A DNA stretch of 64,000 nucleotides, taken from Flavobacteriaceae bacterium PS02334. GTDB taxonomy: Bacteria; Bacteroidota; Bacteroidia; Flavobacteriales; Flavobacteriaceae. The stretch covers positions 124,001 to 188,000 of the forward strand of contig JASCOH010000007.1 of NCBI GenBank assembly GCA_029959295.1, written 5' to 3'. A program made the position numbers and the translations under genes. The notes beneath the pieces are model-generated. The model made no database searches. It was not told the DNA's origin and saw nothing but the letters and a program-made list of their open reading frames with translations. Below are positions 3,323-20,969 of this stretch, piece after piece (within the stretch, counting starts at the first letter, position 1; the number at the start of each line of letters is the position of its first letter).

Positions 3323-4426
3323 TTATTTAGCGTTTTCTCTTTTTCTATCATCCACACGTTTTTGCGCGATTGATAAGGCTGCTTGATGCGTTGTCACACC
3401 GTTTTCTTCAGCAAATCCAAAAATCTCTAAAGTCGTGTTATAGATATTTTCAGTTCTTCTTAAAGCTTCAGCGCTATCATAACCTACAATTTCAGCATAA
3501 ACATTGATAATTCCACCAGCATTAATCAAGAAATCTGGAGCATAAAGGATGCCTTTTTCTTTCAAGATTCTTCCGTGAACTTCTTCGTTTGCCAATTGGT
3601 TGTTTGCAGCGCCCGCAATAACTTTTGCTTTGATTTTGTTGATTGTTTCATCATTAATCGTAGCTCCAAGCGCACATGGCGCATAAATATCAACATCAGC
3701 GCTGTAAATATCGCTTCCAGTAAAAATTTGAGCGCCGTATTTAGCATTGATTTCGTGCAATCTAGCTTCGTTGATATCAGTAATTTGAACCAAAGCACCT
3801 TCTTCTGTAAGATGTTTGATCAACGTTTCACCAACATTTCCAGTTCCTTGAACCAAAACTTTTTTACCGCTTAAATTGTCCGTACCAAATTGGTATTTCG
3901 CAGCCGCTTTCATTCCCATGTAAACGCCATAAGCAGTTACAGGAGAAGGATTTCCAGAACCACCTCTTGATTGAGAAATTCCAGTAACGTAAGGTGTCAC
4001 GTCTCTGATCAAATCCATGTCAGCTGTTGTCGTACCTACATCTTCTGCAGTGATATATTTTCCGCTTAAAGAATTTATATATTGACCAAATTTGGTAATC
4101 ATTTCAGGAGTTTTATCCACTTTTGAATCTCCGATAATGACAGCTTTACCACCACCCAGATTCAATCCAGAAATAGCAGACTTGAATGTCATACCGCGAG
4201 AAAGTCTCAAAACGTCATTTAAAGCTTCCCATTCGTTGGCATATTTCCACATTCTTGTTCCGCCTAAAGCAGGTCCTAAAACTGTGTTATGAATACCAAT
4301 TATTGCTTTCAAACCAGTATCTTTGTCATTGCAAAATACGATTTGTTCGTGATTATCGAAGGACAATTGACCAAAAACCGGGTCGATCTTGTGAAGCTCA
4401 CTTGCCTTTACTACTTCTGTTATCAT
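3323..4426 (-). CDS. Leu/Phe/Val dehydrogenase (Glu/Leu/Phe/Val dehydrogenase family)
   Basis: This enzyme catalyses NAD(P)-dependent oxidative deamination of branched-chain or hydrophobic amino acids to 2-oxo acids. The 367 residues match amino-acid dehydrogenases of the leucine dehydrogenase type. The N-terminal catalytic domain carries the glycine-rich segment with the active-site Lys (LNLGGGKAVIIGD), preceded by GPALGGTRMW. The C-terminal Rossmann domain has VLVQGTGNVGETL and, later, VIAGAANNQLA and FLINAGGIINV. The gene appears monocistronic, with a TAATTTTG box upstream on its strand. In Flavobacterium it could supply branched-chain precursors for iso-fatty acids; substrate preference cannot be read from the sequence. 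Confidence 0.92.
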   Translation of the reverse strand: MITEVVKASELHKIDPVFGQLSFDNHEQIVFCNDKDTGLKAIIGIHNTVLGPALGGTRMWKYANEWEALNDVLRLSRGMTFKSAISGLNLGGGKAVIIGDSKVDKTPEMITKFGQYINSLSGKYITAEDVGTTTADMDLIRDVTPYVTGISQSRGGSGNPSPVTAYGVYMGMKAAAKYQFGTDNLSGKKVLVQGTGNVGETLIKHLTEEGALVQITDINEARLHEINAKYGAQIFTGSDIYSADVDIYAPCALGATINDETINKIKAKVIAGAANNQLANEEVHGRILKEKGILYAPDFLINAGGIINVYAEIVGYDSAEALRRTENIYNTTLEIFGFAEENGVTTHQAALSIAQKRVDDRKRENAK

Positions 4427-4474
4427 AGTATTTTTTTTGTTTGATTAAATTATGATTTCATCAAAAAGATAACG

Positions 4475-4505
4475 CAAAATTAAGGTTTAATTCAAAACTT
4501 TGCAA
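4475..4505 (-). promoter_or_regulatory. Promoter of the amino-acid dehydrogenase gene
   Basis: On the minus strand, TAATTTTG (4475-4482) matches TAnnTTTG, and a TTG (4503-4505) lies 20 bp upstream of it, a good match to the Flavobacterium -33/-7 arrangement. Confidence 0.6.
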
Positions 4506-4629
4506 CGGAATTAACGATTTTTAATAATATAATAATGAACTTTGTAATTTACAAGTTATTACATAAAAACATAATTCGCTAAAATTAACTTAAAAAACAA
4601 GATTATTTTTCATAATTTTTAAAATAACA

Positions 4630-6378
4630 ATGAAAGAACTTCAATATTTAAACAAATATTTCACTAAATATAAATACCATTTTTTACTCGGAATCATTAC
4701 CACGATCATTGCCCAGATTTTTTCTCTTTATACGCCAAAACTAATCGGAGAATCAATTAACGCTTTGAATAGCGATAGTCTTGATGGAGAAACGATAAAA
4801 AAACTATTGCTTGAAAACATTTTGTGGGTTCTTGCAACTACTTTAATTGCGGGAATTTTGACCTTTTTAATGCGTCAAACTCTGATCGTAATGTCACGCT
4901 ACGTTGAATTCGACTTAAAAAACGAAGTCTTCCGCCAATATGAAAACCTATCTCAAAACTTCTACAAAAGAAATAGAACTGGAGATTTGATGAACAGAAT
5001 CAGTGAAGATGTCGGAAAAGTCAGAATGTATGTCGGTCCGGCGGTAATGTATACCTTAAATACGTTTATACGCTTTGCGGTTGTAGTTACTCAGATGTAT
5101 ATTATTTCGCCAAAACTTACCTTATATACGTTGCTTCCATTGCCGATATTATCCTACTTGATTTTTAAATTAAGTAATGAAATTAACATCAGAAGCGGTA
5201 TTTTCCAGCAGAATCTTTCGCAATTGTCAAGCTTTACGCAAGAAATATTTTCTGGAATCAGAGTTATAAAAGCGTACAGTTTAGAAAACAAATCACACGG
5301 AGAATTCTCAGAATTGTCTGAAGAAAGCCGTGACAAAAGCATGAAACTTGCAAAAACCAATGCGCTTTTCGGTCCGTTGATGATTTTATTAATTGGATTG
5401 AGCAACTTGGTCGTGATTTATGTTGGAGGAATAATGTACATCAATGGTTCTATAAAAAGTATTGGCGTAATTGCCGAGTTTATTTTATACGTAAATATGC
5501 TTACTTGGCCTGTAGCTTCATTAGGCTGGGTTTCTTCAATGATTCAGGAAGCAGAAGCTTCTCAAAAAAGAATCAATGAATTCTTGAAAATTGAACCAGA
5601 AATCAAAAATAAAGCTTCAGAAACTTCTGTGATAAACGGCAAGATTACGTTCAAGCACGTAAGTTTTATCTATGAAGACACAAATATTACAGCTTTAAAC
5701 AATATAAGTTTTACAGTAAATAAAGGAGAAACTTTGGCTATTCTTGGAAAAACTGGCTCTGGAAAATCAAGCATTCTAAGTTTAATCAGCCGTTTATATG
5801 ATATTAAGGACGGAGAAATCTCCATAGACGACCAGAACATAAAAGGATTGAATTTGCACGATGTTCGCGAAAGCATTGCAGTTGTGCCACAAGATGCTTT
5901 TCTATTTTCAGATTCTATTAAAAATAATATTAAATTCGGAAAAGAAAACGCAACTGATGAAGAAGTAATTGAAGCTGCTAAAAAAGCGGTCGTTCACAAT
6001 AATATTATGGGTTTCAACCACCAATATGACACTGTAATTGGCGAACGCGGCATTACACTTTCTGGCGGACAAAAACAGCGCGTTTCTATTGCGAGAGCGA
6101 TTATCAAAGATTCCCGAATACTCTTGCTTGACGACTGTCTTTCAGCAGTTGACACTGAAACTGAAGAAGCAATTTTGAATAATTTATTAGAATTCTGCAA
6201 AGACAAAACTACAATTTTGGTCAGCCACAGAGTTTCTTCCGCTAAAAACGCAGACAAAATTATTATTTTAGATGACGGAAAAATCATACAGCAAGGCACT
6301 CACAATCAATTAGTAAACCAAGAAGGATATTACAAAGAACTTTATATCAAACAGCTTTCTGAAAAAGAAATGCCTTAA
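4630..6378 (+). CDS. ABC exporter, fused membrane and ATPase domains
   Basis: The 582-residue half-transporter has six predicted membrane spans in the first 310 residues, followed by an ATP-binding domain (about 335-570). The ATPase motifs are complete: Walker A ILGKTGSGKSS, Q-loop VVPQDAFLF, signature LSGGQKQR, Walker B ILLLDDCLSAVD and the switch His in LVSHRVSS. It should form a homodimer that exports a lipid, drug or peptide (MsbA/MdlB-like group); the substrate cannot be told. A PUR-domain protein follows 73 bp downstream. There is no peptidase C39 domain, so it is not an obvious bacteriocin exporter. Confidence 0.93.
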   Translation: MKELQYLNKYFTKYKYHFLLGIITTIIAQIFSLYTPKLIGESINALNSDSLDGETIKKLLLENILWVLATTLIAGILTFLMRQTLIVMSRYVEFDLKNEVFRQYENLSQNFYKRNRTGDLMNRISEDVGKVRMYVGPAVMYTLNTFIRFAVVVTQMYIISPKLTLYTLLPLPILSYLIFKLSNEINIRSGIFQQNLSQLSSFTQEIFSGIRVIKAYSLENKSHGEFSELSEESRDKSMKLAKTNALFGPLMILLIGLSNLVVIYVGGIMYINGSIKSIGVIAEFILYVNMLTWPVASLGWVSSMIQEAEASQKRINEFLKIEPEIKNKASETSVINGKITFKHVSFIYEDTNITALNNISFTVNKGETLAILGKTGSGKSSILSLISRLYDIKDGEISIDDQNIKGLNLHDVRESIAVVPQDAFLFSDSIKNNIKFGKENATDEEVIEAAKKAVVHNNIMGFNHQYDTVIGERGITLSGGQKQRVSIARAIIKDSRILLLDDCLSAVDTETEEAILNNLLEFCKDKTTILVSHRVSSAKNADKIIILDDGKIIQQGTHNQLVNQEGYYKELYIKQLSEKEMP

Positions 6379-9772: not shown

Positions 9773-10543
9773 ATGGGTTCTTACATTATTATTAGTGATG
9801 ATCACGAAAACGCTCTGAAAATTCAGTCTATGGCTGAAAATTTTCCCAGCCTTGTTTTTTCAGGTTATGCTTACAATTATGCCGATGGACTCAGCCTTGT
9901 CTTGGAACACCAACCAAAATTAGTTTTCTTAGAAATCAATCCGAAATTGAAAACAAGCAAGCTTTCTCTTTCCTTGATAAATGAATTTTACCGCTATTTG
10001 AAAACTGTTCCAAAAGTTATTGTGACTGCTAAAAGTAAAAATTTAGCTTATGAAGCAATAAAACATGGGGTTTTTGACTATCTAGAAGCTCCTTATGACT
10101 CAAATGACTTCAGAAAAGCAATACTGAAATTTGAAAAATCTTTAGTCTTTGCGGTTGCAAATGTAAATTCTGTACGCCATTCAAACCTTAAAGACAACCT
10201 CACCATCTGCATAAAATCATACGGCGATTATAAGTTTATTTATGCACTTGACATCCTTTATCTTCAGGCAGACAGCAATTCTACGGACATTTATCTCAAC
10301 AGCGGCGAAATGATAACTGCTTTCAAAACCTTGAAGCATTTTGAAAAAGCGCTTCCTCCCCAGTTTTACAGAATCCATAATAGTTTTATTGTAAACAAGG
10401 ATTACATTTCAAGAATTCATACGGGAAACAGCGTCTGTTTTTTAAAAAATTCGAAAACGAAATTGCCTTTTTCTAAATCTTACAAGACAAATATTGACCA
10501 GATTATTGCCTCAATTTCAAGTTCAGATTATTTAGAAATTTGA
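9773..10543 (+). CDS. LytTR-type transcription regulator with a degenerate receiver
   Basis: The 256-residue protein has a CheY-like N-terminal domain (about 1-120) and a C-terminal LytTR DNA-binding domain (about 145-250; YALDILYLQADSNSTDIYL, then FYRIHNSFIVNKDYI). The receiver keeps the acidic pair (D9/D10 in ISDDHEN). However, the phosphoacceptor position reads VFLEIN, so Glu54 replaces Asp, and the conserved Lys is Ala106 (FDYLEAPYD). Aspartyl phosphorylation is therefore unlikely, and Glu might mimic the active state. It lies 63 bp upstream of the first TPR sensor kinase, which has no regulator of its own downstream. It may regulate the island, but its targets are unknown. Confidence 0.88.
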   Translation: MGSYIIISDDHENALKIQSMAENFPSLVFSGYAYNYADGLSLVLEHQPKLVFLEINPKLKTSKLSLSLINEFYRYLKTVPKVIVTAKSKNLAYEAIKHGVFDYLEAPYDSNDFRKAILKFEKSLVFAVANVNSVRHSNLKDNLTICIKSYGDYKFIYALDILYLQADSNSTDIYLNSGEMITAFKTLKHFEKALPPQFYRIHNSFIVNKDYISRIHTGNSVCFLKNSKTKLPFSKSYKTNIDQIIASISSSDYLEI

Positions 10544-10606: not shown

Positions 10607-12616
10607 TTGAAAAAGATAATTCTGCTATTATTTATCATATTTGCAAGCTGTTCTGATAAGCCCAAAAAATTTTCGGAAAAAGACACTCCAGATAGCCTTG
10701 CCATTTATTTTCGCTTAGCCAGCGAACAAAGCATAGCATATAAAAAACGTCTTGAATGCGTTGAAAAAGCACATGCCTTACTGAAAAATCATAAAAATGA
10801 TTCCTTGCATCGAGAAAATCTTTTTATGGTAGCAAATAAGTATTTCAACTTGGGTAGCTATGAAAAGTACCTAGAAATATCCAAAATTCTTGCGGAAGAT
10901 TCTCAAAAAGCCAAAGATTCTACAAGTCTTGCCAAAGCTTATTCTTACATGGCTGACTATTACGCAAAAAATTTCAATAAATCCGACAGCGCATTTATCT
11001 GTTATATCAAGGCCATAAAAATCTATAAAAAACTTAAAATCAGCGATGAAAGGCTAGGAAATACTTATGTAAATCTCAGTCTTCTTCAAACCAATCAAAA
11101 TGATCTTCTTGGAGCTGAAACCTCTGCCATAGAGGCTATAAAACTGCTAAAGGAAAATAAATCTCTAATTTACCAAGCGTATAATATTGTCGGTATTGCC
11201 GCCCTCGGACTTGAAGATCATGAAAAGGCCATCGAATATCACACCAAGGCTTTAAAAATAGCCAAAGATGCCGGATTGACTGCGGAAAATGAAGTCATTG
11301 CTTCAATAAACAATATCGGCGGCACTTATCAAAGCCAACAAAAACACAAAGAAGCCATAGAAAAATTTGAAGAAGCGCTGAGGCATAAAAATTCATTTCT
11401 GAATACGAATGCGCATGCCACTTTGCTTGACAATCTGGGTTATTCCAAATTAAAATTAGGAGATTATTCTCAACTCCCTGACTTATTTTATCAGGCATTG
11501 AAAATTCGAGACAGTTTAAGCTTAGACTATGATATTGTTTACAATAAATTACATCTCTGTGAATTCTACAGCGCAAAAAAAGATACCTTGACAGCGCAAA
11601 AATTTGCAACTGAAGCGTTAGCACTTTCGCGAGAAATTAAAAGTCCCCAGGAGATTGTGATGGCTCTTTGCCAGTTGATAGAGGTAGATTCAAAAAATGC
11701 TTCAAAATATGGAAAAGAATACATAGCCATAAACGACAGCCTTATGGTCGAAGAAAGAAAAGCAAAAAATCAATTTGCTCGCCTTGGTTTTGAAACAGAT
11801 GACATCATACTCGAAAAAGAAATTGCAGTACAGCGACAATGGCTTATTTTCATCATCGCAGGATCGATAGTGCTTTTTGGGTTGCTGCTTTATATCATAA
11901 GAATGCAGCGGATAAGACAGAAGGAATCAATTCTAATACAATCACAGCAAAAGGCGAGCGAAGAAATATACCAGCTAATCTTAGACCAGCAAATACAATT
12001 CAACGACGGCAGGGAAAAAGAGAAAAAGCGTATTGCAAAAGAATTGCACGACGGAGTGATGAACAAGCTCGCTGGAATTAGGTTCAATCTTTTCGTGCTC
12101 CAGAAAAAGACCGATCCTGAAACGATTTCAAAGTGCATTTCGCATATATCTGAAATAGAATCGATTGAAAAAGAAATAAGAAACATCACCCACGACTTGC
12201 ATCAAGACGTATTTTTTGCCAAAAACGATTATGCCGAACTATTAGAAACGCTGACAAACGGCCTAGACGAGAGCGTACAAATCAATACGCAGTTAAAAAT
12301 AGACGAAAATATCAATTGGGAAATAATTCCTGCGGTCATAAAAATGCACTCCTACAGAATTTTGCAGGAAAGCATCAGCAATGCCATCAAACACAGCAAC
12401 GCTAAAAACATTTACGTCTGCATCTTGAAAAATACCGACACTTTGCTTATAGAAATCAAGGATGATGGAACTGGTTTTGATACAATGCTGGAATCTGCGT
12501 CCCTCGGAATTAAGAACATAAAATATCGTGCCGCAGAAATGAATGGAAAATGTGAAATCAATTCGTCTACTCATGGAACCATAATTGCAGTTATAATACC
12601 TTTAAAGAAATCGTAA
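10607..12616 (+). CDS. TPR sensor histidine kinase 1 (TTG start)
   Basis: The 669-residue kinase starts with TTG at 10607, chosen because it gives a lipoprotein signal (LLLFIIFASC, Cys15) and no in-frame ATG fits. A TPR region follows (about 60-390), including EKAIEYHTKALKIAKDAG and KEAIEKFEEALRHKN. One membrane span is at about 412-432 (IFIIAGSIVLFGLLLYII). The HisKA_3 dimerisation/phosphoacceptor helix has His481 in AKELHDGVMNKLAGI. The HATPase domain has an N box (QESISNAIKHSNAK), G1 (IKDDGTGFD) and G2 (LGIKNI). The TPR part should face the periplasm, held by both lipid and helix. No regulator gene follows; the nearest is the upstream LytTR gene. Confidence 0.9.
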   Translation: MKKIILLLFIIFASCSDKPKKFSEKDTPDSLAIYFRLASEQSIAYKKRLECVEKAHALLKNHKNDSLHRENLFMVANKYFNLGSYEKYLEISKILAEDSQKAKDSTSLAKAYSYMADYYAKNFNKSDSAFICYIKAIKIYKKLKISDERLGNTYVNLSLLQTNQNDLLGAETSAIEAIKLLKENKSLIYQAYNIVGIAALGLEDHEKAIEYHTKALKIAKDAGLTAENEVIASINNIGGTYQSQQKHKEAIEKFEEALRHKNSFLNTNAHATLLDNLGYSKLKLGDYSQLPDLFYQALKIRDSLSLDYDIVYNKLHLCEFYSAKKDTLTAQKFATEALALSREIKSPQEIVMALCQLIEVDSKNASKYGKEYIAINDSLMVEERKAKNQFARLGFETDDIILEKEIAVQRQWLIFIIAGSIVLFGLLLYIIRMQRIRQKESILIQSQQKASEEIYQLILDQQIQFNDGREKEKKRIAKELHDGVMNKLAGIRFNLFVLQKKTDPETISKCISHISEIESIEKEIRNITHDLHQDVFFAKNDYAELLETLTNGLDESVQINTQLKIDENINWEIIPAVIKMHSYRILQESISNAIKHSNAKNIYVCILKNTDTLLIEIKDDGTGFDTMLESASLGIKNIKYRAAEMNGKCEINSSTHGTIIAVIIPLKKS

Positions 12617-13045: not shown

Positions 13046-13294
13046 ATGAAAAAATCTATCTTAACATTCGCTTTATTTTCTTTAGTAGTATTAACATCTT
13101 TTACAACTTTAAAATCAACTGGTGAAACAGGAGACGATGATCCAGGAAATGGAACTCCAACAACGACTACTGATGACGCAAATAGAAGAGATACAGGAGG
13201 ACAAGATAGTGGCGGAAATAAAAAAACTATTATAGACCCAGTACCTTTTTCACCACAATATCCAAATCAAGAAATTCTTATAAGAAGAAAATAA
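13046..13294 (+). CDS. Small secreted Thr/Gly/Asp-rich peptide precursor
   Basis: The 82-residue product begins with a signal peptide (KKSILTFALFSLVVLTSF). A low-complexity, acidic Gly/Thr/Asp-rich stretch follows (about 25-55), then a short conserved-looking tail (TIIDPVPFSPQYPNQEILIR) ending in RRK. It has no cysteines, so it is neither a lipoprotein nor a disulfide peptide. It is isolated between kinase 1 and kinase 2. A secreted signal sensed by the neighbouring kinases, or an immunity or structural peptide, are both possible; this is inference from position only. I do not recognise a family. Confidence 0.65.
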   Translation: MKKSILTFALFSLVVLTSFTTLKSTGETGDDDPGNGTPTTTTDDANRRDTGGQDSGGNKKTIIDPVPFSPQYPNQEILIRRK

Positions 13295-13438: not shown

Positions 13439-13466
13439 TAAAAACAAAGTAAACAATTCTTCAAAG

Positions 13467-13494
13467 GCCTTTGGTAACTCCAAAGGCTTTTTTT
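13467..13494 (+). terminator. Terminator just upstream of kinase 2
   Basis: GCCTTTGG, loop TAACT, CCAAAGGC and seven T residues form a perfect 8-bp stem. It insulates the kinase 2 promoter from upstream transcription and is the first part of the 172-bp repeated block. Confidence 0.85.
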
Positions 13495-13510
13495 ATGCCA
13501 ATACTTTTAC

Positions 13511-13518
13511 TATTTTTG
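13511..13518 (+). promoter_or_regulatory. -7 box of kinase 2
   Basis: TATTTTTG lies 17 bp before the TTG start, implying a leader of only about 10-12 nt. The same box at the same distance precedes kinase 3. Confidence 0.6.
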
Positions 13519-13535
13519 AAAAAAACTTCAGGCTA

Positions 13536-15545
13536 TTGAAAAAACATCACTACTTATTTTTCATTATAGGTCTACTATTAATCGGATGTTCCGATAAGAA
13601 AAAGAATTTTACTGAAGGAAAGAACTCAGATAGCCTTATTACCTATTTGGCGATAGCTAATGAAGATACTGTTGATATCGACAAGAGGATAGAATTTAAC
13701 AACAAAGCTTTAGAGATACTGCTAGATGAAGATAATGACTCCTTAAATAGGGAGAACCTGTTTTTGGTTGCAAATCGATTTTATAATATGAACCGGCTTG
13801 AAGAATATCGCAAAGTCACGAAAATTATATCTAAAAATTCAATAGCTGTAAATGACAATCAAAATATTGCAAAAGCATATTCCTATTTAGGAGATTATTA
13901 CATAAATACTCCAAAAAAAGATAGCGCATTTTTTTACTATACAAATGCTGAAAAAATCTATAAAAAATTAAAAGACAGAATTAACTTAGGTGCTACTTAT
14001 GTCAACATGGCAATAGTACAAAACTATGTAAGTGATTTTTCTGGCAGTGAACAATCAGCTGTACTAGCTTTGGATGTTTTGAGAGAAACAAATGAGAAAG
14101 TTAAAATATATGAGGCTTATAATATTTTGGGAGTAACATCTTATGGATTAAAAAATTACGAAAAGGCTATTGAATATCATACAAAGGCTTTAAATTCAGC
14201 CAAAGAAAATAATTTGACAACTTACTATGAAGCAAGCTCATTAAACAATCTAGGTGGTGTGTACCAAGAGCAAAATAAATATAAATTATCAATTTCTAAA
14301 TTTAATGATGCGCTTAGTTATAAAGATATATTACAAGAAAATCTTCAGCTCTACGCTACCTTAATTGATAACTTAGCCTATTCAAAATTTAAACTTAATG
14401 ATTTTAAACAACTTCCTGACTTATTTTACCTCTCACTCAAAATTAGAGACAGCTTAAATTTAAAACCTGCAATAGCTTATACAAAAAATCACCTTTCAGA
14501 ATTTTATGCTGCAAAAAATGATACTACAACAGCTCGAAAATTTGCAAGAGAAGCCCTAGAACTTTCAAAAGCAATTAAAAGTAGTTCTGATATGCTCATG
14601 TCTTTAAAGCAAATGGCAAGCGTAGAACCTCTAAATGCTTCTGCATATTCAAATGAATACATAAAAATTATCGACAGCCTTCAGCAAGCTGAAAGAAAAT
14701 CAAAAAATCAATTTGCAAGAATCAGTTTTGAAACTGATGAAATAATTATAGCAAAAGATACAGCTATAAAGCAGAAATGGATTTTTTTTGCTTCAGCTAT
14801 AACTATTATCATTTTTGGCATTTTACTTTATATCGTAAGAATGCAGAAAATAAAACAAAAAGAGCTTTTATTCATTCAATTACAGCACAAGGCAAGTGAA
14901 GAAATATACCAGCTGATTCTAGATCAGCAGGCAAAATTTGATCAGGGCCGGGAAAAAGAAAAAAAGCGGATTGCAGAAGAGCTCCATGATGGTGTCATGA
15001 ACAAACTAACAGGAATTCGATTGAATCTTTTTGTCCTTGAAAAAAAAACCGATCCTGAAACCATTAAAAAATGCATTGCACACATTTCAGGAATTCATTC
15101 CATAGAAAAAGAAATTCGCAATATTGTGCATGACCTCCACCAAGATCTTTTCGTAGCGAAAAACGATTATCCAGAACTTTTAAAAACTTTGGCAGGCAGT
15201 TTTGAAAGCAGTAGCCTTATCAAAATTGACATTGATGATTTGGTAGACTGGGAAACAATTCCCGCAATAATAAAGATGCATATTTACCGCATCTTGCAAG
15301 AAACAATCGCCAACAGCATAAAACATAGCGGAGCAACCAGTGTCACTTGTAGTATAGTTGACAAGAAGCAATTTTTAGAGCTTGAAATAAATGATAATGG
15401 CAAAGGATTCTCCATTCAGAATGAATCTGCAGGCATAGGCCTGAAAAACATAAAATCACGTACAGCCGAAATGAAAGGAAGTTGCCATATCAACTCTTCA
15501 AAAAAAGGCACAGTCATTACCATACAGATACCGCATGAAAAATAA
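13536..15545 (+). CDS. TPR sensor histidine kinase 2 (TTG start, mosaic)
   Basis: The 669-residue kinase has the architecture of kinase 1: lipobox GLLLIGC (Cys18), TPR region (about 55-395, e.g. EKAIEYHTKALNSAKENN), one membrane span (about 413-435), HisKA_3 with His484 in AEELHDGVMNKLTGI, and HATPase with QETIANSIKHSGA, NDNGKGFS and IGLKNI. The TTG at 13536 is the only start that fits the signal sequence. Residues 1 to about 400 closely match kinase 3, whereas the transmitter half closely matches kinase 1 (for example KKTDPETIKKCIAHIS against KKTDPETISKCISHIS). It overlaps the downstream regulator gene by 11 bp, so the two are translationally coupled and very likely cognate. Confidence 0.92.
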   Translation: MKKHHYLFFIIGLLLIGCSDKKKNFTEGKNSDSLITYLAIANEDTVDIDKRIEFNNKALEILLDEDNDSLNRENLFLVANRFYNMNRLEEYRKVTKIISKNSIAVNDNQNIAKAYSYLGDYYINTPKKDSAFFYYTNAEKIYKKLKDRINLGATYVNMAIVQNYVSDFSGSEQSAVLALDVLRETNEKVKIYEAYNILGVTSYGLKNYEKAIEYHTKALNSAKENNLTTYYEASSLNNLGGVYQEQNKYKLSISKFNDALSYKDILQENLQLYATLIDNLAYSKFKLNDFKQLPDLFYLSLKIRDSLNLKPAIAYTKNHLSEFYAAKNDTTTARKFAREALELSKAIKSSSDMLMSLKQMASVEPLNASAYSNEYIKIIDSLQQAERKSKNQFARISFETDEIIIAKDTAIKQKWIFFASAITIIIFGILLYIVRMQKIKQKELLFIQLQHKASEEIYQLILDQQAKFDQGREKEKKRIAEELHDGVMNKLTGIRLNLFVLEKKTDPETIKKCIAHISGIHSIEKEIRNIVHDLHQDLFVAKNDYPELLKTLAGSFESSSLIKIDIDDLVDWETIPAIIKMHIYRILQETIANSIKHSGATSVTCSIVDKKQFLELEINDNGKGFSIQNESAGIGLKNIKSRTAEMKGSCHINSSKKGTVITIQIPHEK

Positions 15546-16200
15546 CAAGAAGAAAATTTTAATTATCGATGATCATTCATTGATAATTGAAGGCTACAAA
15601 AGCATTTTGTCTTTTAATGAGCAGGGATTGGAATTAGACTTCAAGCAGGCTCTAAGCTGTCAAGCCGCTTATAATATACTGAAGATAGAAGAAGGAAATT
15701 TTGATGTCATATTCCTAGACATGACGCTGCCTCCTTATGATGAAATGGAAATATATTCAGGAGAAGACCTCTTTCCTCATGTAAAAAAATACCAGCCCCA
15801 GAGCAAGGTCATACTGGTAACATCCCATACGGAACAGTTTCTATTGTATAAAATATATAAAAAATTAAATCCGGATGGCATTCTAATCAAAAGTGATTTT
15901 ACTCCCGTAGAATTTTTGACCGCTTTTGAATACATATTAAACGAAAACAAATATTATAGCTACACGATGAGAGAAGCTATTAAAAAAATTGCCGCCAATT
16001 ATTCCTTTCTTGACAGTCTAGACATGCAGATTATTACGCTCCTTTCTGAAGGAATCCAAAGCAAAAGTCTTGAAGATTATCTTTCTATAGGCAAAAGCGC
16101 AATTGACAAAAGAAAACAGAAAATCAAAACATTTTTTAAGATTGAAAAAGGTACCGATGAAGATATTATAAGAGAAGCAAAAAAACAAAATTTTATATAA
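15535..16200 (+). CDS. LuxR-type response regulator, partner of kinase 2
   Basis: The 221-residue regulator has an intact receiver: acidic pair D12/D13 (IIDDHSLI), phosphoacceptor Asp62 (VIFLDMTLP), Thr96 (LVTSHT) and Lys119 (LIKSD). The C-terminal helix-turn-helix (about 155-205; DMQIITLLSEGIQSKSLEDY, then SAIDKRKQKIK) resembles LuxR/NarL output domains, although the turn and recognition helix are atypical. The start overlaps the kinase 2 stop by 11 bp. The bacteriocin-like gene starts 125 bp downstream behind its own box, so it is an obvious candidate target. Confidence 0.9.
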   Translation: MKNNKKKILIIDDHSLIIEGYKSILSFNEQGLELDFKQALSCQAAYNILKIEEGNFDVIFLDMTLPPYDEMEIYSGEDLFPHVKKYQPQSKVILVTSHTEQFLLYKIYKKLNPDGILIKSDFTPVEFLTAFEYILNENKYYSYTMREAIKKIAANYSFLDSLDMQIITLLSEGIQSKSLEDYLSIGKSAIDKRKQKIKTFFKIEKGTDEDIIREAKKQNFI

Positions 16201-16249
16201 TTTAACATTTTTTACATTTTAAATATAAAATTCATTTTTAAAACTGATT

Positions 16250-16257
16250 TAAGTTTG
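16250..16257 (+). promoter_or_regulatory. -7 box of the bacteriocin-like cassette
   Basis: TAAGTTTG matches TAnnTTTG and lies 68 bp before ATG 16326. There is no TTG at the normal -33 distance, as might be expected for a promoter that needs an activator; that last point is inference. Confidence 0.5.
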
Positions 16258-16325
16258 TAAAAGCAAATTACTCGAGAAATATTTGTTTTAAAACAATTAA
16301 TTATTAAATTTAAACAATTTTAAAA

Positions 16326-16889
16326 ATGAAAAAATTATTATTCGGCTTAATAGTCACACTTATGATCTGCCTTTCTGGAAATGCACAAAATTTAAGAGCT
16401 GATTTCTTAAAAGGAAAAAAAACGAATAAAGAAGTAATTGAAGCTTTCAGCAAATTATCAGAAGAGGAACAAAAACAATTATGGCTTGAAAAGGTTGACC
16501 AGTTACTCACTTTAAAATTACCTTCAGAACACCATGAGTTAATTAAAGAAATAAGAGACGGAATGGATAAAGGATTTGATCAAGAAAGTGCATCCGCTTT
16601 TCTGAAAAACGCATCTAACCTTGCTAAGATAACACCGCTTAAAGATTTTGGAGAGATGTTTGAAATGTTAGAAGATTATCATTATGATGGAAAATTTTCA
16701 GATACTAAAAGTGTTCCTGATTCAATTGTAAAAGGCATTGCTGAACTCGATCTTTTTGAGAGAGGCGCTTGTTCATGCAGATGGTGTTTGTTTAGTACTA
16801 CTTCTACAGGTACAAATTGTTCACCTACTAGAAGCGGTTGTGGCTTTTTCTTTATGCAGGAATGTAATCAATGCATTCTCTGCAAATAA
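16326..16889 (+). CDS. Fulvocin C-related bacteriocin-like precursor
   Basis: The 187-residue precursor has a signal peptide (residues 1 to about 20, LSGNA-Q). A charged helical propeptide with no Cys follows (about 21-145). The last 39 residues contain eight Cys (149, 151, 154, 165, 172, 180, 183, 186). Their arrangement (CSC near the front, TGTNCSPTRSGCG in the middle, CNQCILC at the end) resembles fulvocin C, a 45-residue, eight-Cys bacteriocin of Myxococcus fulvus. By analogy it would be exported by Sec, oxidised to four disulfides and cleaved near residues 145-148. The next gene encodes a thiol oxidoreductase, which fits. No immunity gene is recognisable. Activity is not shown by sequence; a structural Cys-rich peptide is the alternative. 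Confidence 0.72.
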   Translation: MKKLLFGLIVTLMICLSGNAQNLRADFLKGKKTNKEVIEAFSKLSEEEQKQLWLEKVDQLLTLKLPSEHHELIKEIRDGMDKGFDQESASAFLKNASNLAKITPLKDFGEMFEMLEDYHYDGKFSDTKSVPDSIVKGIAELDLFERGACSCRWCLFSTTSTGTNCSPTRSGCGFFFMQECNQCILCK

Positions 16890-16929
16890 AAAAGAGATCC
16901 AATATTAGAACTCTTTAAAATTTATAAAT

Positions 16930-17772
16930 ATGAAAATAAAGTTTTTTATTCTTTTCAGTCTTGCAATTATAATTTCATATCTTTTATTTGGGGTTTTATT
17001 TGACGGAGAACATGTACTCATGATACCATTGTTTCTTTCGGTTATTTTTATAATTACCATACTTGCCTTTAAAAAGAAGACTGGTGTAAGACTGATTGAC
17101 TGCTTGCTGATTGTATTACCTTTTTGGCTGATAATTCTTGTTGGAGGATATTTTATTGAAAATTATTCTCGAATCCTACAATATCTAATATTTGTGCCAG
17201 TAAGCAGTTGTCTTGCTTATTTATATTTAAAAACCAAAAAGATTCTTATAATACCTATTTCCTTAGTCATTTTTTATTGTGTCGGAAGATTTTTATTTAT
17301 AACGATGTTTACCTATTTAAGCAATGTAGATGCAGAAAAAAATATAGATCTGCCAAAAATAAGTTTGGTAAATAATCATAATGAAGAAATCAATCTTCAT
17401 AGAGATAAGATCATAGTACTAGATTTCTGGTCAACCAGTTGCAGTATATGTTTCAAAGAATTTCCAAATTTTGAATCAGTTTTTCAAAAATATAGATCAA
17501 ACAAGAACATTGAGATCTATGCGGTAAATTATCCACTGAAAAGAGACAAATTCGATGAGACCATTAAAATATTAGATAGCATCGGATATAATTTTCCAAA
17601 ACTTTATGCAACATCGGCTAAGCAAATTGAAGACAGTCTGCACTTTAATACATTTCCTCATTTGATAATTGCAAAAAATGGAAAAATCAGGTATGATGGA
17701 ATGTTTGAGACAGAAAAAAACACTCTGGTTTTTAGTATAGAATCTGAAATCGAAAAATTATTAAAGGAGTAA
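16930..17772 (+). CDS. Membrane-anchored thioredoxin-like oxidoreductase
   Basis: The 280-residue protein has about five membrane spans in residues 5-130, followed by a thioredoxin-fold domain (about 138-280) with C171-S-I-C174 in LDFWSTSCSICFKEFP and the cis-Pro at 243 (FNTFPHLII). The layout is TlpA/ResA-like with the redox domain expected outside the membrane. It lies 40 bp after the Cys-rich precursor and 3 bp before the next gene, so it is probably co-transcribed. A role in forming or shuffling the precursor's disulfides is the simplest inference. The membrane part lacks Cys pairs that would clearly mark it as DsbD-like. Confidence 0.82.
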   Translation: MKIKFFILFSLAIIISYLLFGVLFDGEHVLMIPLFLSVIFIITILAFKKKTGVRLIDCLLIVLPFWLIILVGGYFIENYSRILQYLIFVPVSSCLAYLYLKTKKILIIPISLVIFYCVGRFLFITMFTYLSNVDAEKNIDLPKISLVNNHNEEINLHRDKIIVLDFWSTSCSICFKEFPNFESVFQKYRSNKNIEIYAVNYPLKRDKFDETIKILDSIGYNFPKLYATSAKQIEDSLHFNTFPHLIIAKNGKIRYDGMFETEKNTLVFSIESEIEKLLKE

Positions 17773-17775
17773 TTT

Positions 17776-18177
17776 ATGAGTAGAATATTTTTATTTATTT
17801 TTATATTTTCTTCAACTGGAATGTACTCTCAATCTGATTTTGAAAAAACATTGAAAGCCGGCGAAGTATTAGTGAATGGATTATCTTTTTTCAAAAACGG
17901 AAAATCAGAAGTCAAATCATCTGAATCTAAAACTGTTGAAAGTATCTGTGTCAAAAATAAGATCTCAGAAAAAATAACGTTTATTTTGGCTGGAAAAGAT
18001 GAAGAAGGCAACGTTCAGAAAAAAGAATTAATAATCCAAAAAGACGGAAAAGAATGCATTTTTGAACTGCCAAAAGGCATTTATACTTATGAAATTGTCT
18101 TGCCAAACAAAGAAATTTTTAAAAAAGGCGAATACAAATTCAATGAAGACACGACAATAACAGTAAAAACTGAGTAA
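17776..18177 (+). CDS. Small secreted protein in the bacteriocin cassette
   Basis: The 133-residue protein has a signal peptide (FLFIFIFSSTGMYSQ) and a beta-rich mature part with two Cys (ESICVKN and KECIFE), which could form one disulfide. It starts 3 bp after the thioredoxin gene stop, so the two are probably translationally coupled, and it ends at the terminator before kinase 3. I do not recognise the family. Immunity, processing or an accessory envelope role are possible from position only. Confidence 0.72.
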   Translation: MSRIFLFIFIFSSTGMYSQSDFEKTLKAGEVLVNGLSFFKNGKSEVKSSESKTVESICVKNKISEKITFILAGKDEEGNVQKKELIIQKDGKECIFELPKGIYTYEIVLPNKEIFKKGEYKFNEDTTITVKTE

Positions 18178-18195
18178 AATTTAAATTCTTTAAAA

Positions 18196-18223
18196 GCCTT
18201 TGGTAACTCCAAGGGCTTTTTTT
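18196..18223 (+). terminator. Terminator ending the bacteriocin cassette
   Basis: GCCTTTGG, loop TAACT, CCAAGGGC and seven T residues form an 8-bp stem with one G-U pair, 18 bp after the cassette's last stop. It is nearly identical to the terminator at 13467. Confidence 0.85.
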
Positions 18224-18239
18224 ATGCCAATAGTTTTAC

Positions 18240-18247
18240 TATTTTTG
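18240..18247 (+). promoter_or_regulatory. -7 box of kinase 3
   Basis: TATTTTTG lies 17 bp before the TTG start, identical in sequence and spacing to the kinase 2 promoter. Confidence 0.6.
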
Positions 18248-18264
18248 AAAAAAACTTCAGGCTA

Positions 18265-20286
18265 TTGAAAAAACATCACTACTTATTTTTCATTATAGGT
18301 CTACTATTAATCGGATGTTCCGATAAGAAAAAGAATTTTACTGAAGGAAAGAACTCAGATAGCCTTAACACCTACTTAGCGATAGCTGATAAAGATACTG
18401 TTGACGTCAAAAAGAGAATAGAATTTAACAACAAGGCATTAGAGATTCTCTTCAATCAAGAAAATGACTCATTAAATAGGGAGAACCTATTTTTGGTTGC
18501 CAATCGATTTTTTAACATGAATCAACTTGAAGAGTATTTCAAAGTAACAAAAATTATATCTCAGAATTCTATAGCCGCAAAAGACAATCAAAATATTGCA
18601 AAAGCATATTCCTATCTAGGAGATTATTATGCCGGCAATTCTAAAAAAGACAGTGCCTTTTTATACTACACTAAAGCCGAAAAAATTTATATCAAATTAA
18701 AAGATAATGTTAATTTAGGAAGCACTTATGTCAGTATGGCTCTTGTTCAAAATTATGAAAGTGATTTTTTAGGAAGTCAACTTTCAGCAGTAAAAGCTTT
18801 AAATATTTTGAGAGGGACAGAAAGTAATGCTAAGATATATGAAGCTTACAATATATTGGGAGTTACATCTTATGGATTAAAAGACTATGGAAAAGCTATT
18901 GAGTACCATACAAAAGCACTAAATTTAGCAGAAGAAAAAAATCTCACAACCTATCATGAAAAAGCAAGTTCACTAAATAATTTAGGTAGTGTTTATCAAG
19001 AGCAAAACAAACATGAACTAGCAATTTCTAGATTTAAGGAAGCTCTTAAAAACAAGCAATTGTTTATAGACAAACCCAAATTATATGCAACTTTAATTGA
19101 CAACTTAGCCTATTCCAAACTTAAACTTAAAGATTTCCAACAACTTCCTGAATTATTTTATAAATCCCTCAGAATTCGAGACAGTATAAATATAAAGTCA
19201 GCCGTGGCCTATACCAAAAATCACCTTTCAGAATTTTATGCCATAAAAAATGATACAATAAAAGCCAAAAAATTTGCAAAAGAAGCTCTTGAACTTTCAA
19301 AAGCCATTAAAAGCGCTCCTGATATGCTGTTGTCTTTAAAACAAATGGGAATTGTGGATCCCGAAAATGCTTCATTTTATTCAAACGAATACATCAGAAT
19401 AAACGATAGTCTCCAACAAGCCGAAAGAAGATCAAAAGATAAATTTGCACGAATCAGTTTTGAAACTGATGAATACATTCTCCAAAATGATAAATTGACA
19501 GAACAAAACAGAAAAATAATTTTTTCTGCGATAATTCTAATACTTTTCGGAACTTTGATTTTTGTCATAAAAAACCAGCGTTCAAAAAATAAAGAGTTCT
19601 TATTGAAGCAGGCACAGCAAAAAGCTAATGAAGAAATATATGACCTGATGCTTTTTCAACAAAAGAAAATTGAGGAAGGAAGAGCCGATGAAAAAGTCAG
19701 GATTGCACAAGAATTGCATGACGGAATTCTTGGAAGATTATTTGGTGCAAGGCTAAACTTAGACAGCTTGAACAAACGCCAAGATGAAGACGCAATGGCT
19801 TCACGAATTAATTTCATTGCTGAATTGAAGAGCATTGAACAAGATATTCGAGAAATTTCTCATGATTTGAGCAGAGAGAAAAACGAAGTGAATAATAACT
19901 TTATCGGTATCTTTAACAACTTAATTGAACAGCAGGAAAGCATTTCTGGCGCAAAGGTAAATTGCCACATCGACAAAGAAATTATCTGGGATAAGGTAGA
20001 GAACAATATTAAAATTAATTTATATAGAATTCTTCAAGAATCTTTGCAAAACATCAATAAATATGCACAGGCAGAAAATATTACGATTGAAATTTCAATA
20101 ATAGAAGAGCAATTATCAGTTATAATTTCTGACGACGGAATTGGCTTTTCAGTAAGTAAAAAAAGCAAAGGAATCGGACTTAAAAATATAATTTCGCGAA
20201 CGCATGCGTGTGACGGCACTATAGACATCAAGTCAAAAATCAATAAAGGAACAACAATAAATATTAAGCTCCCAATCTACCAATAA
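18265..20286 (+). CDS. TPR sensor histidine kinase 3 (TTG start)
   Basis: The 673-residue kinase has an N-terminus identical to kinase 2 (lipobox GLLLIGC, Cys18), TPRs (about 55-398, e.g. GKAIEYHTKALNLAEEKN), one membrane span (about 414-434), HisKA_3 with His485 in AQELHDGILGRLFGARLN, and HATPase with QESLQNINKYAQAEN, SDDGIGFS and IGLKNI. The transmitter half differs clearly from kinases 1 and 2 (DEKVRIAQEL, then EISHDLSREKNEV), so it probably talks to a different regulator. Its partner is the regulator gene 11 bp downstream. The sensor half is paralogous to kinase 2, so both may detect related signals. Confidence 0.92.
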   Translation: MKKHHYLFFIIGLLLIGCSDKKKNFTEGKNSDSLNTYLAIADKDTVDVKKRIEFNNKALEILFNQENDSLNRENLFLVANRFFNMNQLEEYFKVTKIISQNSIAAKDNQNIAKAYSYLGDYYAGNSKKDSAFLYYTKAEKIYIKLKDNVNLGSTYVSMALVQNYESDFLGSQLSAVKALNILRGTESNAKIYEAYNILGVTSYGLKDYGKAIEYHTKALNLAEEKNLTTYHEKASSLNNLGSVYQEQNKHELAISRFKEALKNKQLFIDKPKLYATLIDNLAYSKLKLKDFQQLPELFYKSLRIRDSINIKSAVAYTKNHLSEFYAIKNDTIKAKKFAKEALELSKAIKSAPDMLLSLKQMGIVDPENASFYSNEYIRINDSLQQAERRSKDKFARISFETDEYILQNDKLTEQNRKIIFSAIILILFGTLIFVIKNQRSKNKEFLLKQAQQKANEEIYDLMLFQQKKIEEGRADEKVRIAQELHDGILGRLFGARLNLDSLNKRQDEDAMASRINFIAELKSIEQDIREISHDLSREKNEVNNNFIGIFNNLIEQQESISGAKVNCHIDKEIIWDKVENNIKINLYRILQESLQNINKYAQAENITIEISIIEEQLSVIISDDGIGFSVSKKSKGIGLKNIISRTHACDGTIDIKSKINKGTTINIKLPIYQ

Positions 20287-20297
20287 ACACAAACAAC

Positions 20298-20969
20298 ATG
20301 ACTAAAAAATTGAACATTCTTATTGTAGACGACCATCCTTTTATTATTGAAGCCTACAAAAACACGATTGCCGGGTATCATCCTTCTGAATTTGAATTCA
20401 ACATTACCCAAGCAAATGACTGCAAATCAGCATACAATATTATTACAAATCCGGATGTGGCTTCTTATGATGTAGCTTTTTTTGACATCAGCATGCCTGC
20501 ATACGAAGAGAAAAATATTTTATCGGGAGAAGATTTGGCAAAACTTATGAAAAAGACATTGCCAAACTGCAGAATTATTCTTTTGACAATGCATACAGAA
20601 TCGCTTAAAATCAATAATATAATCAAGACTATAAATCCAAACGGACTCATTATTAAAAATGATTTGACATTTGACGAGCTCTTGAATGCCTTTGACAAAA
20701 TTTTAAAAAACGAGAATTATTATAGCCAAACTGTCGTAAAATTTGTAAGCCAAAACACAGGAGAAAATGCACTTATTGACGAATTTGACCGTCAGATTTT
20801 GCACCATCTTTCGAGAGGTGTCAAAACAAAAAATATTCCGTTGCACACTTCGCTTTCACTCAGCGCAATTGAAAAAAGAAAATTAAATTTAAAGGAATTA
20901 TTCGACATAAGAGACGGAGGCGACGATGAAGACCTTTTGCGAGAGGCAAGAAACAGGGGATTCGTATAA
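20298..20969 (+). CDS. LuxR-type response regulator, partner of kinase 3
   Basis: The 223-residue regulator is paralogous to the one at 15535. The receiver is intact: D11/D12 (IVDDHPFI), phosphoacceptor Asp63 (AFFDISMP), Thr97 (LLTMHT) and Lys120 (IIKND). The output domain (about 158-210; FDRQILHHLSRGVKTKNI, then SAIEKRKLNLK) has the same atypical LuxR-like form. Both regulators share a receiver insertion ending in SGEDL. It follows kinase 3 after 11 bp and is the last gene of the island. Confidence 0.9.
   Translation: MTKKLNILIVDDHPFIIEAYKNTIAGYHPSEFEFNITQANDCKSAYNIITNPDVASYDVAFFDISMPAYEEKNILSGEDLAKLMKKTLPNCRIILLTMHTESLKINNIIKTINPNGLIIKNDLTFDELLNAFDKILKNENYYSQTVVKFVSQNTGENALIDEFDRQILHHLSRGVKTKNIPLHTSLSLSAIEKRKLNLKELFDIRDGGDDEDLLREARNRGFV

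Follow-up and report, generated by a model that had tools for sequence, protein, structure and literature searches.

A candidate peptide-sensing kinase island with an exchangeable bacteriocin-like cassette in a Flavobacteriaceae genome

Quorum sensing by peptides is known chiefly from Gram-positive bacteria, in which class II bacteriocin loci of the plantaricin and blp type are peptide-regulated, three-component systems. A similar combination is seen in a 64,000-nucleotide stretch of the 4.6 Mb genome of Flavobacteriaceae bacterium PS02334 (assembly GCA_029959295.1, contig JASCOH010000007.1, positions 124,001 to 188,000; hereafter the window), where a small gene for a candidate exported peptide (P0009) lies by sensor kinases with tetratricopeptide repeats (TPRs), a LytTR regulator, which is the class of AgrA and ComE, and bacteriocin-like cargo. 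The locus differs from the plantaricin and blp loci in its Sec-type signal, its TPR kinases with one membrane span and its Gram-negative host; P0009 starts with a long hydrophobic Sec-type signal, and no double-glycine leader or C39 exporter is seen among the ten window proteins scanned, the rest of the genome not having been searched. We read the locus as a variant of the peptide-regulated bacteriocin loci, with signalling deduced from gene association and killing from likeness to fulvocin, and it suggests peptide signalling of an unreported kind, with possible control over antibacterial peptides.

Other described systems share single components with the island. The RRNPP receptors also have a TPR domain as the proposed peptide receptor, but the TPRs of the window are predicted, from sequence and hydropathy only, to lie outside the cytoplasm and are fused to a histidine kinase. 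The sensor kinase FimS likewise joins TPRs to a kinase, but the window kinases give only partial matches to its model NF053520 (15.7 to 39.3 bits), far below the 600-bit cut-off. SdpC-type toxins are Sec-exported precursors of about 200 amino acids with the toxin peptide at the C-terminus, a plan that the cargo protein P0003 may share. Among clusters for ribosomally synthesized and post-translationally modified peptides in Bacteroidales, one has a kinase-regulator pair and two have TPR-domain genes, according to the accessible part of PMC10352776. They have in common with the island that they are peptide clusters of Bacteroidota, but they contain double-glycine-type precursors, transporters and modifying enzymes, and that part of the source describes no small precursor gene beside a TPR kinase. 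The titles and abstract openings among the literature matches listed mention neither a peptide/TPR-kinase pair in Flavobacteriaceae nor fulvocin-like loci with kinases.

Our interpretation, which we believe about as much as we doubt, takes the region for an island of peptide-sensing kinases in Flavobacteriaceae, into which an exchangeable bacteriocin-like cassette has been inserted. Gene content, cargo differences, an empty site, the association of precursors with kinases, tandem repeats and a thioredoxin linkage are read from the sequences, and from them we infer that a peptide is released and bound, that the cargo is regulated, that disulfides form and that bacteria are killed. Should the link prove functional, the Bacteroidota would have a peptide-signal system open to testing, with candidate ligands for TPR kinases, and the exchangeable secreted cargoes without a family match would be candidate antibacterial peptides.

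Layout of the island and its exchangeable cargo

The open reading frames (ORFs) named in the original prediction were all found where it had placed them, and domain matches of P0001/P0002 and P0006/P0007 bear out its description of a cassette between two TPR-kinase/regulator pairs. The kinase of the first pair, P0001, lies mostly outside the range that it covered (15535-20969), and the island further includes a third TPR kinase, a LytTR regulator and a small secreted ORF that it did not list. The features are as follows, with G408 denoting another genome that carries the island.

9773..10543, + strand: LytTR-type response regulator, 256 amino acids (Pfam LytTR, 64.2 bits)
10607..12616, + strand: TPR sensor kinase P0008, with a lipobox-like start, TPRs, a hydrophobic segment at about 406-434, HisKA_3 and HATPase_c
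13046..13294, + strand: P0009, candidate secreted peptide precursor, 82 amino acids, with signal-like start MKKSILTFALFSLVVLTSFTT and without significant repeats
13460..13535, + strand: terminator-like inverted repeat and presumed promoter before kinase P0001, near-identical to 18190-18264
13536..15545, + strand: TPR sensor kinase P0001, with TPRs, HisKA_3 and HATPase_c
15535..16200, + strand: response regulator P0002, with a receiver and a divergent NarL-like C-terminus
16201..18219, no strand: cargo insert, lacking at the corresponding site of G408
16326..16889, + strand: P0003, fulvocin C-related secreted precursor, 187 amino acids, with a match to NF033852 and eight Cys in residues 149-187
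16930..17772, + strand: P0004, membrane protein with a predicted C-terminal thioredoxin/TlpA-like domain (CSIC), from Pfam matches and hydropathy
17776..18177, + strand: P0005 (P5), small secreted cargo companion, with homologs beside many cargo types
18265..20286, + strand: TPR sensor kinase P0006, with TPRs, HisKA_3 and HATPase_c
20298..20969, + strand: response regulator P0007, with a receiver and a NarL-like C-terminus

Comparison with G408 (locus L136) shows a site without the cassette. Alignment to the window breaks off at the P0002 stop codon and picks up again 45 base pairs (bp) before P0006, with 2019 bp between the aligned blocks in the window and 94 bp in G408 (the blocks end at window 16200 and L136 5331 and resume at window 18220 and L136 5426); the P0007 homolog of G408 is 84% identical. 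Other islands have other, mainly secreted, proteins in the regulator-kinase interval, encoded on the same strand. The P0003 cassette is thus one exchangeable insert in an island whose cargo varies between species.

P0005 (P5 for the family) recurs with such cargoes. It matches no Pfam or NCBIfam model at E<=1, and its structure model (predicted local distance difference test, pLDDT, 78.5) has a predicted helix plus seven strands, with no match in the PDB at E<=0.001 and weak matches only, CnaB being the first. Homologs are found in 34 of 299 same-genus genomes, its own included, and at 72 loci in the genome-contig collection, from Flavobacterium, Chryseobacterium, Epilithonimonas, Weeksellaceae, Flavobacteriaceae and a few metagenome-assembled genomes (MAGs) of other groups; seven loci without a called P5 ORF were excluded. 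By simple rules, a signal-peptide ORF of 100-280 amino acids is present within 2.5 kb upstream of P5 in 45 of the remaining 65 loci, a small protein with two or more hydrophobic segments in 21, and island regulators or kinases adjoin P5 in 13. These upstream proteins are diverse, the C-terminus often being Cys-rich or hydrophobic, and ten representatives reached the cut-off of no NCBIfam or Pfam family. A second P5 gene of the PS02334 genome (82% identical to P0005; L139 6477-7921) follows genes for a different secreted protein with Cys and for another thioredoxin. We also note a recurrent cargo at L138, L141, L150 and L158, which has a Cys-flanked hydrophobic C-terminus and is followed by a membrane protein of 81-85 amino acids; the latter could be an immunity protein, and at L138 the pair matches no family over its cut-off.

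It is possible that kinases and cargo are adjacent through insertion at a permissive site without any functional link, which would suit the P0009-like precursors being either released ligands or anchored proteins. The empty site shows that the island can lack the cassette, and with 13 of 65 P5 loci adjoining island genes most do not. This explanation is nonetheless rather improbable, as the cargo consists mainly of secreted proteins and, where present, shares the strand of a regulator and the following kinase and lies between them: among 19 same-strand successions of this kind, taken from loci chosen by closeness to P5 or for paired regulators and thus giving biased fractions, 12 (window included) have ORFs in the interval, six measure less than 350 bp and one is 401 bp long and free of ORFs.

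TPR kinases, regulators and small secreted precursors

P0001, P0006 and P0008 each have a lipobox-like N-terminus, TPRs, one hydrophobic region at about 406-439 and HisKA_3/HATPase_c domains. Given the lipobox-like N-terminus and a hydrophobic segment at 413-439, the TPR part is predicted to be extracytoplasmic. The sensors of P0001 and P0006 share 75% identity and their kinase halves about 40%, and the likeness of the two genes at the DNA level starts in the terminator-like repeat, reaches 99% over 13501-13600 and declines along the sensor. Elsewhere, similar sensors with different kinase halves are seen only at L136 (0.85 and 0.45), and a pair at L170 is alike in both (0.69 and 0.75). A shared sensor as a rule within an island was considered and rejected, because within-island sensors (L140 kinases excluded) are mostly 0.25-0.33 identical and only the window, L136 and L170 have pairs at 0.69-0.85.

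The partner regulators P0002 and P0007 had been described as LuxR-type. Both have a receiver domain (43.7 and 42.5 bits, cut-off 30.2), but neither has a Pfam LuxR/GerE match at E<=1, and the label is based on full-length matches to MctR/NarL models that are far under their cut-offs. The receiver of the LytTR regulator at 9773-10543 falls short of the Pfam cut-off of 30.2 (23.2 bits). Of the 56 loci with kinase and regulator, window included, 26 have a LytTR homolog no more than 600 bp from an island gene, at 39-73% identity and in some cases over the C-terminal domain only.

Upstream of the TPR kinases there is often a small secreted ORF. A signal-peptide ORF of 45-115 amino acids ends within 300 bp upstream of 45/77 kinases (window included) compared with 12/447 control genes, and when genes are restricted to those with at least 250 bp free upstream the counts are 45/52 and 6/119 (Fisher p 4e-27). 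The sample consisted of 80 loci plus the window, picked by likeness to P0002 or P0005, and controls were the remaining genes of these loci that encode at least 250 amino acids. Signal peptides were called by a crude rule and ORFs mechanically, and the samples were chosen by similarity to window proteins. For a second sample, 92 of 149 genomes matched and the best 29 loci besides the window were taken, scored with a slightly looser rule and no control set. A precursor-like ORF is present at 25 of the 29; 28 of these loci are from 28 other genera, 24 of which have the ORF. The motif [TI]G[GD], picked after inspection of the same 25 precursors, occurs after residue 24 in 13 of them, compared with 2.7 expected and a maximum of nine in 2000 shuffles.

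Two classes of precursor are seen. In Flavobacterium the signal ends near TSFTTP and is followed by tandem units with [IT]GG, and 17 of 22 such TSF-type precursors have tandem repeats unmatched in 2000 shuffles; for the other five the score was reached in 184 (P0009), 1899 (L199), 1612 (L200), 626 (L201) and 53 (L202) shuffles. The units of 11 repeat precursors (10 of the 17 with strong repeats plus L126; the first units of L165 and L182 are out of phase) differ at 0.39 of synonymous sites and 0.105 of other sites, a comparison in which the detection of repeats at the amino-acid level itself favours low non-synonymous difference. In the second class (class B), short lipoprotein-like ORFs in up to seven copies with a shared C-terminal tail precede the kinase (L168). 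At L168 (approximately 3831-5488), L167 and L177 there are five to seven such genes in tandem, of 57-82 amino acids and with one common tail per locus, before one kinase.

P0009 has a position and signal of the same kind as the repeat precursors of other islands. Its homolog heads the kinase array of G408 (48% identity over 73 amino acids); with lower divergence at non-synonymous than at synonymous sites (dN 0.44, dS 0.78) and a GGQ...NKK stretch common to both, P0009 is probably a real gene. The G408 array (L310 124-10615 and L136 1-8185) has approximately eight paralogous TPR kinase ORFs in tandem, one seemingly broken in two, behind this single P0009-like gene, and each of the last two kinases is followed by a regulator.

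The sensors of the kinases behind repeat precursors are divergent. Mean identity among 17 of them is 0.37 for the sensor and 0.64 for the kinase half, with the sensor lower in 136 of 136 pairs; for the four kinases behind non-repeat TSF precursors the values are 0.60 and 0.81. Likeness of the units correlates with likeness of the sensors (Mantel rho 0.25, p 0.005, n=17, with two unit cores, L182 and L195, parsing poorly), and does so with kinase identity held (0.20, p 0.015), compared with 0.02 (p 0.42) for units and kinase halves with the sensor held. The correlation is weak, in the direction expected of a ligand-receptor pair.

An alternative is that the small precursors are anchored accessory subunits or stress-sensing lipoproteins, the cargo an envelope-stress response and P0003 a structural or redox-active surface protein. 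Lipobox-like signals are present in 21 of 25 second-sample precursors and in 16 of the 17 fulvocin relatives that have a plausible signal at the called start, and a DUF1573 partner at 13 of 22 fulvocin loci agrees with the same view. A released ligand, however, is a better fit to the arrays of near-identical units in 17 of 22 TSF precursors, to the synonymous differences between units, to the row of up to seven lipoprotein genes at L168 and to sensors that are less conserved than kinase halves, and we regard anchored subunits as unlikely, if a serious competitor. A plausible scenario with released ligands is that Flavobacteriaceae have an unreported peptide-signalling system of tandem or C-terminal units, many with a [TI]GG core, and extracytoplasmic TPR kinases, in which units and sensors diverge in a pherotype-like manner and the islands are docking sites for exchangeable secreted bacteriocin-like cargo marked by P5; we put this forward tentatively, our belief in it falling a little short of our doubt.

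The fulvocin C-related precursor and its partners

P0003 belongs to the bacteriocin fulvocin C-related family, as had been proposed: it scores 76.7 bits against NCBIfam NF033852 (cut-off 35) over residues 40-183, which a chance Cys pattern would not be expected to do. The eight Cys that had been counted in its last 39 residues are present (positions 149, 151, 154, 165, 172, 180, 183 and 186 of 187), together with the CSC, TGTNCSPT, SGCG and CNQCILC elements of a fulvocin C-like pattern. To our knowledge antibacterial activity is known only for fulvocin C itself, the product of Myxococcus fulvus. The original papers on it are cited in PMC8708641. P0003 resembles fulvocin C and its family in a Cys-rich C-terminus with CxC, GCG and a late Cys, and has an ordinary Sec-type signal ending GNAQ. 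It reached the cut-off of no family in a Pfam scan, a single-protein search of the genome-contig collection with P0003 found no relative, and no solved structure matched below E 0.05; a structure model from three sequences (pLDDT 45.1) is unusable and no claim about fold is made. NF033852 has one match in the PS02334 genome, and at E<=0.001 matches are found in 13/299 family-sample, 13/299 genus-sample and 4/395 phylum-sample genomes, this genome counted each time.

The Cys pattern is kept among homologs. Twenty-three C-termini were selected for, and aligned on, a CxC close to the terminus, which fixes two Cys columns by construction; beyond these, five columns keep a Cys in 19 to 22 rows and one keeps a Gly in all 23 (L040, L044, L044b, L045, L047, L048, L060, L061 and L062 are excluded). 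P0003 differs from the family in lacking the common Cys of column 34 and in having extra Cys, and many relatives have lipobox-like signals (the 16 of 17 noted above; five further rows begin at an internal Met).

The membrane thioredoxin that had been reported behind the precursor is borne out by the hydropathy of P0004, which has several hydrophobic N-terminal segments, and by its Pfam matches (Thioredoxin_8, 31.2 bits, cut-off 27; Thioredoxin, 29.7 bits, cut-off 23.5). It shares a thioredoxin domain with CxxC (CSIC) with the TlpA/ResA oxidoreductases, but its 44.4 bits against the ResA model NF002854 are under the 170-bit cut-off. This linkage recurs, with a P0004-like protein downstream in 14 of 22 other fulvocin-family loci; a DUF1573-like protein (Pfam-named for one partner protein) is present in 13, and one or the other in 20. 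Eight of 30 entries (L044, L044b, L045, L047, L048, L060, L061 and L062) were excluded from these counts for having no Cys C-terminus, being a fragment or giving no profile match. Linkage to kinases is not general: the TPR kinases and regulators are within 6 kb in 0 of the 22, seven of which have less than 6 kb of sequence on one side or both. With thioredoxin at 14 and kinases at none, the oxidoreductase is, by gene neighbourhood, a general partner of fulvocin-like genes and the kinase island a rare one.

One further locus, L220, on a Flavobacterium MAG contig found through P0005, has in order a LytTR homolog, a P0002-type regulator, a fulvocin-like protein, a thioredoxin and P5 (38%, 46%, 42%, 50% and 58% identical to the window proteins). 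The contig stops 187 bases after P5, and its short last ORF has by eye a lipoprotein-like start, with a kinase not confirmed. This same cassette beside a regulator, the NF033852 match and the thioredoxin linkage agree with the model of the original prediction, a dedicated fulvocin-type bacteriocin operon with two sensor pairs of its own. We consider that model very unlikely, since the kinases are missing within 6 kb of the 22 other fulvocin loci, seven of them cut short, and islands exist with other cargo or none; the counts lean against an over-representation of fulvocin-type genes in kinase islands. We also note that DUF1573 proteins (for example L034 11060-11443) recur beside fulvocin-like genes, though not in the window.

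A proposed working of the island

In the interpretation of a peptide-sensing island with an inserted cassette, a small precursor, here P0009, would be exported and give a short peptide in the periplasm or outside the cell. The peptide would bind the extracytoplasmic TPR domains of the lipoprotein-anchored, single-span kinases, and with alike sensors (75%) and different kinase halves (about 40%) in the window, a single ligand could act on two regulators. The cargo operon would then be turned on by the NarL-like regulators and perhaps by the LytTR one too. P0003 would leave the cytoplasm through Sec; the membrane thioredoxin P0004 would fold or proofread its Cys-rich C-terminus, which would be freed as an antibacterial peptide rich in disulfides. 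P0005, a secreted companion of many cargo types, may be protective or serve in delivery.

Several observations weigh against this scheme. The repeats of P0009 are not significant (184/2000 shuffles), making the ligand of the window island the weakest link, and the TSF precursors of L199-L202 are likewise without strong repeats; the amino-acid-level detection of repeats bears on the unit comparison as noted. The signal-peptide test is a crude rule, and for 32 of the 77 kinases it finds no ORF of this kind in the 300 bp upstream; in 25 of the 32 the next upstream ORF is less than 250 bp away, and two others (L177 and L184) have a precursor-like ORF at 319 and 325 bp. The 21 lipoprotein-like precursors of the second sample could stay anchored as sensor subunits, and the lipobox-like signal common among P0003 relatives would not be needed by a freely released bacteriocin; P0003 itself has an ordinary Sec-type signal. 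For 23 class B kinases the gap between sensor (0.40) and kinase half (0.48) is slight, with the sensor lower in 219 of 253 pairs, and a first hand-picked ten gave the reverse order; the contrast between classes A and B drawn from hand-picked sets of nine and ten shrank with 17 and 23, and the larger sets are relied on. Neither an exporter nor a maturation protease is among the ten window proteins scanned, the rest of the genome not having been searched for an exporter, and control of the cargo by the kinases and killing by any cargo are deductions beyond what the sequence itself shows.

Among other features of the region, PADLOC gave weak partial matches only and a plasmid search one weak place. 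A 14-base palindrome before P0003 (16283-16296) was rejected as a regulator site, having one exact copy and three places with at most two mismatches compared with 3.8 expected. The inverted repeat at 13460-13535 was not flagged by a consensus scan. Highly similar direct repeats at 13460-13650 and 18190-18380, comprising the terminator-like repeat, the presumed promoter and the sensor start, flank P0001, P0002 and the cargo, and recombination could occur between them.

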